37,586 bases of DNA from Acidiferrobacterales bacterium (GTDB lineage Bacteria > Pseudomonadota > Gammaproteobacteria > Acidiferrobacterales > Sulfurifustaceae), in the NCBI GenBank assembly GCA_919902925.1, contig CAKKRZ010000052.1:1-37586 (forward strand). Direction: 5' to 3'. The translations under genes were made by a program, and so were the position numbers. Below are positions 4,786-8,284 of this stretch, piece after piece (positions within the stretch are counted from its first letter, which is position 1; the number at the start of each line of letters is the position of its first letter). A model generated the notes under the pieces. That model was not told the origin of the DNA, ran no database searches, and saw only the letters and a list, made by a program, of their open reading frames with translations.

Positions 4786-6252
4786 ATGGAAGCGGCCAAC
4801 ATGGATGACCCCCACCAGGCACTGTATCTCTCGCTCGATCAGGGCGGCCACGCCAGCCGCGCGTTGGTGTTCGACCGCATGGGTCAGTTGCAGGCAAAGG
4901 CCGTGGTCGAGACAGCCGAACAGCGCATCCCTCCGGACCGCGTGGAACAGGACGGGGATGCACTGGTCCGGTCGCTCGAACGGGCAGCGGAAGAGGCCAT
5001 CGTCTCGCTGGGTGGTCGGGCCGCCAATGTCGCCGCCGCCGGTCTCGCCACCCAGCGTTCCAGCATCATTTGCTGGGATCGTGAAACCGGCGCGCCGCTG
5101 TCGCCGGTGCTGAGTTGGCAGGACCGGCGCGCGCACGGCTGGCTGCAACAATTCGCTCCCGAGGCGGAAAAAATCCGTGAGCGCACCGGACTGGTGCTGT
5201 CCGCGCACTACGGCGCGTCCAAACTGCGCTGGTGTCTCGATCACCTGCCGGCGGCGGCGTCGGCGCGCGACGCCGGGCGCCTGGCGATGGGACCACTGGC
5301 GAGCTTTCTGCTGTTCCGGCTGTTGCGTGAGCGGCCACTGCTGATCGATCCCTCGAATGCCGGGCGCACGCTGCTGTGGAACCTCGATCGCGGTGACTGG
5401 GACGACGAGCTTATAAAGTTATTCGGAATACCACGCGCTGCGCTGCCGGCCTGCGTCCCGACACGCCACGATTACGGCACGCTCACGGTCCATGGCCGGG
5501 AAATTCCGCTCACGGTGCTGAACGGCGACCAGTCGGCGGCGCTGTTCGCCCTTGGCCGGCCGCATGCCAATACCGCCTACGTGAATCTCGGCACCGGCGC
5601 CTTTGTGCTGCATGCGTTGGGTGAGTTACCGGCGCCGCGGCCTCGACTGTTGTGCTCGGTCGCCTGGCGGGACGCCGCAGAGTCCGTGTACGTCATCGAA
5701 GGCACCGTCAACGGCGCCGGCAGCGCGCTGGAGTGGGCGGCGCAGAAGCTGGGCGTGAAAGACACCGAAAAGGAACTGGCCGGCTGGTGGAAAACGGAAA
5801 CCTCGCCGCCGCTGTTTCTGAATGGCGTCTCCGGTCTCGGCTCGCCGTTCTGGGTGCCGGATTTCGAATCGCGCTGGATTGGGGATGGCTCGCCGCCCGC
5901 CAAAGTCGTCGCCGTGGCCGAATCGATCCTGTTTCTCATCCAGCGCAACCTGGAGGAAATGAAAAAATCGTTCACACAGTTCGAACAGATCTTCGTCAGC
6001 GGCGGGCTGTCCACGAATGACGTGCTGTGCGAAAAACTGGCGAATCTCTCCGCTCTTCCGGTGTACCGGCCGGTGGAGCACGAAGCCACGGCGCGTGGGT
6101 TGGCGTGGCTCGTGGGAGGATGCCCCGCCGACTGGCCGGAACAGGAATTCGGCCGCTGGTTCCGGCCGTCACCTGATGAGGGATTGCGCGAACGATATGA
6201 GCGATGGGGGAAGGAAATGAATGCGGGGCTCGGGCGCGGCATAGTGGGTTGA
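4786..6252 (+). CDS. FGGY-family carbohydrate kinase, glycerol-kinase-like
   Basis: About 488 residues, the normal length for FGGY kinases (actin-like ATPase fold, two domains). N-terminal YLSLDQGGHASRALVF matches the DQGT-SR phosphate-binding turn of glycerol kinase. GDQSAALFALG (about residue 247) carries the catalytic Asp in the GDQQAALFG context specific to glycerol kinase, where xylulokinases have GDN. NLGTGAFVL, GVSGLGSPFWVPD and the FGGY-2 signature VSGGLSTNDVLCEKLA follow in order. It is clearly divergent from E. coli GlpK, so the substrate is uncertain, but glycerol is plausible given the GlpD-like and phosphodiesterase genes at 13.9-15.9 kb. Start may be ATG 4786 or 4801; the frame is open further upstream through the repeats, but those residues are low-complexity and unlikely to be coding. 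Confidence 0.85.
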   Translation: MEAANMDDPHQALYLSLDQGGHASRALVFDRMGQLQAKAVVETAEQRIPPDRVEQDGDALVRSLERAAEEAIVSLGGRAANVAAAGLATQRSSIICWDRETGAPLSPVLSWQDRRAHGWLQQFAPEAEKIRERTGLVLSAHYGASKLRWCLDHLPAAASARDAGRLAMGPLASFLLFRLLRERPLLIDPSNAGRTLLWNLDRGDWDDELIKLFGIPRAALPACVPTRHDYGTLTVHGREIPLTVLNGDQSAALFALGRPHANTAYVNLGTGAFVLHALGELPAPRPRLLCSVAWRDAAESVYVIEGTVNGAGSALEWAAQKLGVKDTEKELAGWWKTETSPPLFLNGVSGLGSPFWVPDFESRWIGDGSPPAKVVAVAESILFLIQRNLEEMKKSFTQFEQIFVSGGLSTNDVLCEKLANLSALPVYRPVEHEATARGLAWLVGGCPADWPEQEFGRWFRPSPDEGLRERYERWGKEMNAGLGRGIVG

Positions 6253-6370
6253 ACGTCATAATAAACCGACGCAGGCACTCAGTTGCCGTCTGTATTTGCA
6301 GGGTGCTGTTATAAATAAATCTCAGCAAAAACAATAACCAAAGGCATCATGTCGAAAGATTTCAACGGGA

Positions 6371-6430
6371 TTAGGCCGCACGCTGTGTTATCCGGTAAAT
6401 TACAGCACGCTGTCTAATACACTGTTGGGC
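6371..6430 (+). other. Left boundary of cassette array: R' core and repeats (degenerate attC or attI-like)
   Basis: GTTGGGC at 6424-6430 is a perfect recombination core, identical to the R' of the attC at 6779-6836, and lies immediately before the first cassette ORF. Upstream are two copies of GCACGCTGT (about 6378 and 6405) and weakly complementary arms (GATTAG against CTAAT). No perfect RYYYAAC partner is found. It could be a decayed attC of a lost upstream cassette or an attI-like simple site with direct integrase-binding repeats. No integrase gene is in the window. Confidence 0.55.
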
Positions 6431-6433
6431 GTC

Positions 6434-6775
6434 ATGAATAACGAACGATCTCAACAAACTGTTTGTTCCGAGTACGGCTCGGAGTTCGTGCCACCAGATG
6501 CGGAATCTAAGGTGGGTATCGCCCTTGCCAGCTTGAGCAAGACACCACTAAATGCTTTGCGTCATCCTCCGCAAGGAAACACATGCGGTTGGTATATTTG
6601 GGGTGGTGAGGTTTTGCCCCATGAACCAGAGTTTTTTCAGCCGCTTCATGTCCATCACCTGGCGGAACATTGTCCAGGCATATTGCCTTACTTGGGTCTG
6701 GCCCCAGGTTGGCGCGTACTGATTGCACCTGGCCAAATAGAGGTTTGGCATGATCCTGAGCTTCTTGAAATTTAA
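6434..6775 (+). CDS. Cassette 1 ORF: Imm33-like candidate immunity protein
   Basis: A 113-residue soluble protein carried as a gene cassette. The C-terminal part is the recognisable piece: CGWYIWGGE (about 55-63), then FFQPLHVHHLAEHCP, ILPYLGLAPGWRVLIAPG and a terminal VWHDPELLE. To my recollection this pattern occurs in proteins annotated as immunity protein Imm33-like, which protect against toxins in contact-dependent systems; that assignment is from memory and only moderate. The ATG at 6434 is chosen over TTG 6425, which lies inside the recombination core. No toxin partner is adjacent. The stop codon is three bases from the attC R'' core, the normal tight packing of a cassette. Transcription would have to come from outside. 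Confidence 0.65.
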   Translation: MNNERSQQTVCSEYGSEFVPPDAESKVGIALASLSKTPLNALRHPPQGNTCGWYIWGGEVLPHEPEFFQPLHVHHLAEHCPGILPYLGLAPGWRVLIAPGQIEVWHDPELLEI

Positions 6776-6778
6776 CAC

Positions 6779-6836
6779 GCCCAACAACCGGTTCCACGCG
6801 ACCGGCTACGCCGGCGCGTGAACCGGAACGTTGGGC
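6779..6836 (+). other. attC site 1 (59-base element)
   Basis: A 58-base site. R'' GCCCAAC (6779-6785) and R' GTTGGGC (6830-6836) are perfectly complementary. The inner arms CCGGTTCCACGCG (6788-6800) and CGCGTGAACCGG (6815-6826) pair except for one unpaired G, the extrahelical base that integron integrases need for strand choice. Together these are diagnostic of a functional-looking attC in a folded bottom strand. Confidence 0.93.
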
Positions 6837-6849
6837 GTCATAGGCACAC

Positions 6850-7761
6850 ATGAGTACCACTCCAATCACTCAGGATCAGTGGACTATCCATGCGCTAAAC
6901 ATCCATGGCGTCTTCTTTGAGCGTCGGTGTGCCGTCGCCGTTGCCGAAACGGTCGGGTGGAAGGTGCTCACCACCAATTATCCGGTCGAGTATCCACCGC
7001 CAAACGGGTCCTTGCGCGGCAAAGAAAGCAGCCTAGACATTTGGGCACGCAAGGAAGCGGACGCGAACTTCGTATTCGACGCATTGATCGAGTGTAAAAA
7101 GGCAAACCCAGATTTTGTAAATTGGGTGTTCTTTCCGCGCCAAGATTCCACGCCTTCTTCAAAATTCAGCTTTGCGCACGCAACGAATACGCCTAACCCA
7201 AGCGGCTCTGGCCCATGGACTTCTGAACTTCAAATCAGGCACGGTGCTACGCCCCTCGACTTGGCAAGCGACGCGCGCGAGGTTCGTGGTGATTACGTCA
7301 AGCATCAAGGTGGCAACAAGACCAAGACCTCGAACGCAGCGATTCAGGAGGCCGCGTACCAAGTTGCATTGGCTTGCCGAGCAATCGTGTCCGAGGAGTC
7401 TTCACTCCTAAGCAAGGCACGCAAATCCCCAGATCACCCTGCACCACCATGGGTGGCAAAAGCATACATCCCAATTATCGTCACCACTGCACAGCTGCTT
7501 CGCGTGGACTTCTCGCAGGAGAGCACTGATCTCGCTTCTGGAGAAATCGCGCTCACTGATGCTACGCTAACACCGGTTCAAAGCATCGTGTATGAATACG
7601 CACTTCCAAAACACTTGCAGTACTCCCCAGCAAAGCCGCTAGAAGTCCTCAAGACGGGGGATACAGACACATTCAGCCGATTGCACATTATTGTCGTGAG
7701 TGCTGGGCAACTTTCTTCTTTCTTGCGTGAGCATTTCTCTGATCAAAAGGAAGACATCTGA
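6850..7761 (+). CDS. Cassette 2 ORF: PD-(D/E)XK nuclease-like protein
   Basis: A 303-residue protein filling the second cassette; the ATG is 14 bases after the attC core and the stop is seven bases before the next R''. Near the N-terminus, Asp63 (in SSLDIWARK) is followed after 17 residues by Glu81-Cys-Lys83 (in ALIECKKANPDF). This D-x(n)-E-x-K arrangement in a predicted beta-strand context is the core of PD-(D/E)XK restriction-endonuclease-like folds. Later strands (IPIIVTTAQLLRVDF, RLHIIVVSAGQLSSFL) fit an alpha/beta nuclease or DNA-binding scaffold. I do not recognise a named family. It might be a solitary restriction-type defence nuclease, but no methylase is present and the role is inference. 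Base composition is lower in G+C than the neighbours. Confidence 0.75.
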   Translation: MSTTPITQDQWTIHALNIHGVFFERRCAVAVAETVGWKVLTTNYPVEYPPPNGSLRGKESSLDIWARKEADANFVFDALIECKKANPDFVNWVFFPRQDSTPSSKFSFAHATNTPNPSGSGPWTSELQIRHGATPLDLASDAREVRGDYVKHQGGNKTKTSNAAIQEAAYQVALACRAIVSEESSLLSKARKSPDHPAPPWVAKAYIPIIVTTAQLLRVDFSQESTDLASGEIALTDATLTPVQSIVYEYALPKHLQYSPAKPLEVLKTGDTDTFSRLHIIVVSAGQLSSFLREHFSDQKEDI

Positions 7762-7768
7762 GAATGAC

Positions 7769-7831
7769 GCCCAACCCGCGCTTCGAGCCGGACGCGCAAA
7801 AACGGCGCGCCGCTCAAGCTTGTCGTTAGGC
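7769..7831 (+). other. attC site 2
   Basis: A 63-base site. R'' GCCCAAC (7769-7775) and R' GTTAGGC (7825-7831) are complementary apart from one G/C-to-A change. The inner arms GCTTCGAGC and GCTCAAGC pair with one unpaired C, again the expected extrahelical base. A GC-rich terminal stem (GCGCGC type) closes the loop. It ends the array; ordinary chromosomal sequence with a normally spaced gene follows. Confidence 0.92.
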
Positions 7832-7921
7832 TGTCGTGACTGAACCGGCCACGTCGGTGGCACGACGAACAAGCGGCTTCTGCACAATTGCTGTACGATC
7901 AACCAACAAGGAGATCAGGTC

Positions 7922-8284
7922 ATGAAATATGGAATTCGTACCCTGTCGATATTGTCCGCCATTCTGGCCGTCGGTATTTACTTTTCACCGGCGCAGGCCA
8001 AGGAGGACGTTAAACAAACGGTGAAGGATACATGCAGCTCGGCCGGCGGCAGTTATTCGTCCGGCAGCAATTATGCCCGCTGCGAGTATTCGAACGGCGA
8101 TTCCTATACCTGTAATACCGACGCCAACCAGTGCGAGAGCTGCACGAAGGGCAAATGCACGGTGTCTATCAAACGACCTGGTTTTGGCAAGGCACCGACC
8201 GGTCCAGCCCAGAATGCACCCCCGGGCAAGGTAAACACCAAACAGCCGGGCCCGACCGCGCCAGCTAACGCGAACAAGAAGTAG
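7922..8284 (+). CDS. Secreted Cys-rich protein, unknown function
   Basis: A 120-residue protein with a clear signal peptide (residues 1-26, ending SPAQA-K). The mature part has six cysteines in a compact region (about 38-82; pattern DTCSSAGG, ARCEYS, YTCNTDANQCESCTKGKC), suggesting a disulfide-stabilised periplasmic or secreted domain, followed by a Pro/Gly/Lys-rich low-complexity tail. A strong AAGGAG site lies 8-10 bases upstream of the ATG. No family recognised. It lies just beyond the cassette array and, with its own ribosome site and no attC behind it, belongs to the chromosome rather than to a cassette. Confidence 0.75.
   Translation: MKYGIRTLSILSAILAVGIYFSPAQAKEDVKQTVKDTCSSAGGSYSSGSNYARCEYSNGDSYTCNTDANQCESCTKGKCTVSIKRPGFGKAPTGPAQNAPPGKVNTKQPGPTAPANANKK

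Follow-up and report, generated by a model that had tools for sequence, protein, structure and literature searches.

A two-cassette integron array at a repeated attI-like site in an Acidiferrobacterales draft genome

Cassette arrays away from an integrase gene

Cassette arrays without an adjacent integron integrase gene (intI), known as CALINs, are usually interpreted as products of integron decay or of stray insertion, while a single site beside intI is what attI usually denotes. In a sedentary chromosomal integron, attI, cassettes and IntI occur in one genome and a single array lies beside intI. The present case shares these components, but here one intI is found together with many attI-headed arrays. 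The locus described here also resembles CALINs as defined with IntegronFinder 2.0 (PMC9024848) in having two attC sites, one open reading frame (ORF) per cassette and no adjacent intI, but differs from them by a repeated attI-like site at its head. As IntegronFinder detects no attI outside class 1, such a head would go unseen.

Scattered CALINs with an intI elsewhere in the genome occur in Xanthomonas and Vibrio and are ascribed to attG insertion or decay (PMC12444791, PMC12690207). The Xanthomonas CALINs away from ilvD likewise form scattered arrays at conserved positions with intI elsewhere, but the available portion of that report gives no attI copies at those loci (PMC12444791). Insertions at attG (Loot et al. 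2024), as excerpted in later work, also place cassettes outside the main integron by IntI acting in trans, whereas the genomic target is variable there and a conserved attI-like site here. Additional attI copies, functional with IntI, have been described in the delta-attI cassettes of mobile integrons (PMC12901181); those lie inside cassettes, whereas the copies found here are heads of chromosomal arrays. Within a partial coverage of the literature, no report of many attI copies in one genome was found.

The window, meaning the whole stretch of DNA analysed (37,586 nucleotides), makes up all of contig C52 in a draft genome of 2.23 Mb that is 87.6% complete. Sequence comparisons point, with a probability of roughly 0.7, to a two-cassette array that was inserted at an attI-like site without intI and represents one of several scattered platforms. 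If attI-headed scattered arrays are indeed served in trans by one integrase, a large number of CALINs may be active platforms, a question that is testable in a cultured type strain with one IntI and a complete genome, Sulfuricaulis limicola HA5.

Two cassettes and their attC sites

The limits of an integron cassette are the TT of one core and the G of the core that follows. Two cassettes with such core-to-core boundaries follow each other in the window:

6424-6430, + strand: first core GTTGGGC at the junction of the attI-like site and cassette 1, 7/7 complementary to the R'' of attC1
6425-6830, + strand: gene cassette 1, 406 bp
6434-6775, + strand: cassette 1 gene, Imm33-like (PF24719), ATG at 6434, Pfam E 2.8e-37
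6779-6836, + strand: attC1, R'' GCCCAAC, R' GTTGGGC; R2 48.2 bits, E 1.2e-9
6831-7825, + strand: gene cassette 2, 995 bp
6850-7761, + strand: cassette 2 gene, 303 aa, an orphan without known family
7769-7831, + strand: attC2, R'' GCCCAAC, R' GTTAGGC; R1 81.7 bits, R2 65.4 bits, E 6.5e-14

The attC sites were scored with two covariance models built for this analysis, so that the scores are not those of IntegronFinder's model. R1 was trained on three attC sites from IntI-linked arrays of other genomes (relatives) and R2 on 51 IntI-linked attC matches, class 1 integron plasmids included, and the window was excluded from both. With R1, attC2 was the top match in the 227 kb searched. With R2, the third-best place in the window reached 14.0 bits, as against the 65.4 and 48.2 bits of attC2 and attC1. 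The sequence-only reading had placed two attC sites with complementary R''/R' cores at these positions and had regarded poor covariance scores as an argument against them; both are scored high by the independent models.

Folding gave a less uniform picture. In the bottom-strand fold of both sites the L'' and L' arms pair, as had been proposed, but instead of one unpaired base each, attC1 has two (the extrahelical T and G) and attC2, which folds into an architecture like that of attC1, has three. Compared with shuffled sequences, the folding of attC1 stands out (z -7.4), while attC2 is not better than shuffles (z -1.0). The call of attC2 rests instead on the covariance models and on a near-identical twin that belongs to the IntI-linked array of another genome, a relative (G017:C46:65-127).

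The pairing of R'' and R' (RYYYAAC/GTTRRRY) is complete in attC1 (7/7) and lacks one position in attC2 (6/7), whereas both R'' boxes pair at all seven positions with the 5' core of their own cassette; TTGGGC starts both cassettes and matches exactly the R'' box of each. The apparent mismatch in the last R', GTTAGGC, is to be expected, since the TTAGGC half of this box (7826-7831) is part of the insertion site rather than of the cassette. Joined without the array, the flanks read CTAATACACTG|TTAGGCTGTCG. The ORFs end 3 and 7 bases before R'', with stops at 6775 and 7761, and the further GTTGGGC core that opens the array is present, both as the sequence-only reading had it. The two genes do form a real array of integron cassettes.

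The cassette 1 protein matches PF24719 with 127.2 bits at a cut-off of 27; no match was found in the genome-contig collection, but relatives do exist in plasmid records. For the 303-aa protein, no match was obtained in Pfam, PADLOC, PHROGs or PDB sequences and no homologue in plasmids, phages, viral contigs, genome contigs or 398 + 369 genomes, and its single-sequence predicted structure reached a pLDDT of 33. A D...ECKK motif, read by eye, suggests a candidate PD-(D/E)XK nuclease. Both genes would represent accessory cargo. The G+C content is 53-54% in the cassettes and 62% in the window. That the cassettes came from different sources, as had been suggested from their unlike attC sites, is compatible with the finding that attC2 matches the attC of a relative and that attC1 belongs to a different sequence type.

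The attI-like head and the integrase of the genome

Upstream of the first cassette lies an element that had been missed in the sequence-only reading:

6236-6424, + strand: attI-like element, type C, with the simple core GTCTAAT-ACACT-G|TT at its 3' end; the last base, 6424, is the core G

The type-C site forms the head of the array, carries an inverted L box and ends at the core G|TT. Copies were found at six or seven other loci of the genome, of which at least four also head cassette arrays. Full copies lie on C88 (84% identical) and C75 (81%), partial copies of 76-83 bp on C184, C62 and C197, and a weak copy on C45; a 29-bp match at C110:28992 is located at the far end of the contig that carries intI, 28 kb from the gene. 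Similarity among the copies stops at the core G every time. attC sites follow the copies on C52, C88, C75, C184, C62 and C45, whereas none was detected within 3 kb downstream of the copy on C197, and the copy on C110 is cut off by the contig end. The copies on C52 and C88 are interior to their contigs, but several of the other clusters are located at the ends of contigs and may be fragments of a single array, so that their separateness is less certain. Because its attI-like head is repeated in this way, the array is probably one of several attI-headed platforms and not a stranded remnant.

Type C was seen in only two genera. None of its copies was located immediately adjacent to an intI; the IntI contig yielded just the 29-bp core match. 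On its left side, the element overlaps with a repeat motif of 23-26 bp that occurs at several unrelated places. In the window, this motif (GGCGCGGCATAGKGGGTTGAACGTCA, 26 bp, 6233-6258) is also the 3' end of a kinase ORF; it recurs on C88, C182, C172 and C75 and twice on C68, in most cases terminating a longer GC-rich repeat. In a search for a possible Pc promoter, no sigma-70 consensus was found in 6150-7950. A possible further site was detected near the start of the window:

541-583, + strand: diverged candidate for a second attI-like site, of type A; core G at 576; identity to the G014:C26 attI 81% over 43 bp

This site scored 13.4 bits with a type-A HMM, a score not found in 2.26 Mb of shuffled sequence. 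It is followed by ORFs at 595-825 and 810-1223 (BRCT-like) and by no detectable attC.

The absence of intI from the window was borne out, as C52 contains no TIGR02249 match. A profile search of the genome, however, revealed a full-length IntI of 330 aa at C110:209-1150 (498 bits), with both HTLRHS and the catalytic tyrosine region present. The earlier assignment as an integrase-less CALIN therefore stands for the two attC sites and the missing adjacent intI, but it holds for the locus only; the complete-integron arrangement of intI beside attI and array is not found there, and intI lies on C110. That contig starts ~170 bp upstream of IntI, just past the integrase's own attI core (GTCTACTTTTAG|TT), which differs from the type-C attI. 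No integrase cognate to type C was seen in this assembly with its 87.6% completeness. Just after the attI of IntI, C110:1-60 holds an inverted repeat (GTTCGCAGG...CCTGCGAAC), and the contig ends there. The best plasmid match to this IntI (63%) is located on the cyanobacterial Kovacikia minuta plasmid pB, where a DNA methyltransferase gene adjoins the integrase.

Relatives, cassette exchange and the origin of the array

Within the family, complete genomes are available for Sulfurifustis variabilis (G003; 3,958,814 bp) and S. limicola HA5 (G005; 2,864,672 bp) (PMC5024460). A search with R2 placed attC at many positions across the family genomes. In Sulfuricaulis, arrays beside intI as well as scattered arrays lacking it are headed by two further attI types, A and B, and both types are homologous to intI-adjacent attI: type A is the site beside intI in G005, type B that in G013. 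S. limicola has a single IntI above the cut-off, at 434-435 kb with a type-A attI, and at least four attI-headed arrays without intI, headed by type A at 1981 and 2181 kb and by type B at 816 and 2233 kb. Of all the type-A copies located, two had no attC detected downstream. Another relative, G011, is 99% complete, has no IntI above the cut-off and carries 23 attC matches, with attI-headed arrays of types A and B.

Across 20 first cassettes, R'' agrees with the 5' core of the same cassette at 132 of 140 positions, and perfectly (7/7) in 15 of the 20; random re-pairing of cores and R'' gave a mean of 105.4, and none of 100,000 shuffles reached 132. Among all 42 cassettes, the better fit of R'' is to its own 5' core in 32 and to the following R' in 2. 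Such pairing is the signature of circular cassettes that were inserted at the cores in question. In these related sulfur-oxidising bacteria, common platforms with unlike cassettes were found at G005 1981 kb and G018:C297, where the left flank is 84% identical over 1209 bp up to the core, at G005 816 kb and G011:C30, and at G005 2233 kb and G011:C13. Furthermore, G011:C6, G013:C7 and G018:C37 have attI (-52 to +3) and the right flank in common, and the DNA in between is unlike (~846, ~823 and ~616 bp, respectively). In S. limicola, the intI array (435,424-436,450) and an array without intI 1.54 Mb away share two stretches, of 405 and 628 bp, with 100% identity. These stretches are two cassettes, core to core, and on either side the identity stops at the core, which suggests that IntI acted in trans.

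For bacteria of this family, relatives of Sulfuricaulis and Sulfurifustis, a 'distributed integron' with one integrase and many attI-headed platforms without intI, among which cassettes are moved in trans and turned over at many loci, would seem the better supported description, though it is less certain than the reading of the locus itself. IntI expressed at one locus would act in trans on the scattered attI sites, excise cassettes via the folded bottom strand of attC and insert them at G|TT cores; the array would thus have arisen by integron-type site-specific recombination at the attI-like site. With insertion at G|TT cores, cassette 1 would be the most recent arrival.

An ordinary CALIN formed by decay would imply that every attI-headed array was once a complete integron that lost its intI. 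Similarity to the intI-linked attI of G005 indeed extends over ~148-150 bp, near the intI start, in G011:C6 and G014:C26, as expected after such a loss, so that some scattered sites may stem from it, and G011 is without an IntI above the cut-off yet contains many attC. However, tblastn found no intI remnant beside any scattered site, one attI type occurs in several copies per genome, and the cassettes shared with the intI array of S. limicola speak for recent exchange; decay of all these arrays is considered unlikely. Less likely still is that a remote IntI inserted the cassettes at chance genomic attG sites. This process is known in other bacteria (Loot et al. 2024, as cited in PMC12444791 and PMC12690207), and the joined flanks yield a plausible core G|TTAGGC, but genomic attG is variable, whereas here the upstream 60-190 bp resemble intI-linked attI and are conserved across loci and across species.

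No mobile element behind the spread of attI was identified, and the left ends of the copies, fairly sharp in type B and overlapping the repeat motif in type C, could fit a MITE- or REP-like repeat in which a good IntI target is present by chance. Nearly all copies head cassette arrays, though, types A and B serve as attI at intI, and conservation peaks in the 52-83 bp that immediately precede the core, which leaves the repeat as the least probable of the explanations considered. Insertion of the two cassettes at one of several attI-like platforms is thus preferred.

On its right side, the array is followed by a 120-aa gene (7922-8284) that was not found in 59 relatives. The nearest homologous locus, in G011, consists of the kinase, a cupin-like gene (read by eye) and a DUF4198 gene, and offers no alignable intergenic DNA for an empty site at the DNA level. 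Conservation of the same ORFs at this place without attC had been named as evidence against an array, but the G011 locus has neither the cassette ORFs nor attC. The platform is absent there and would therefore have been either gained in the lineage of the window or lost in G011.
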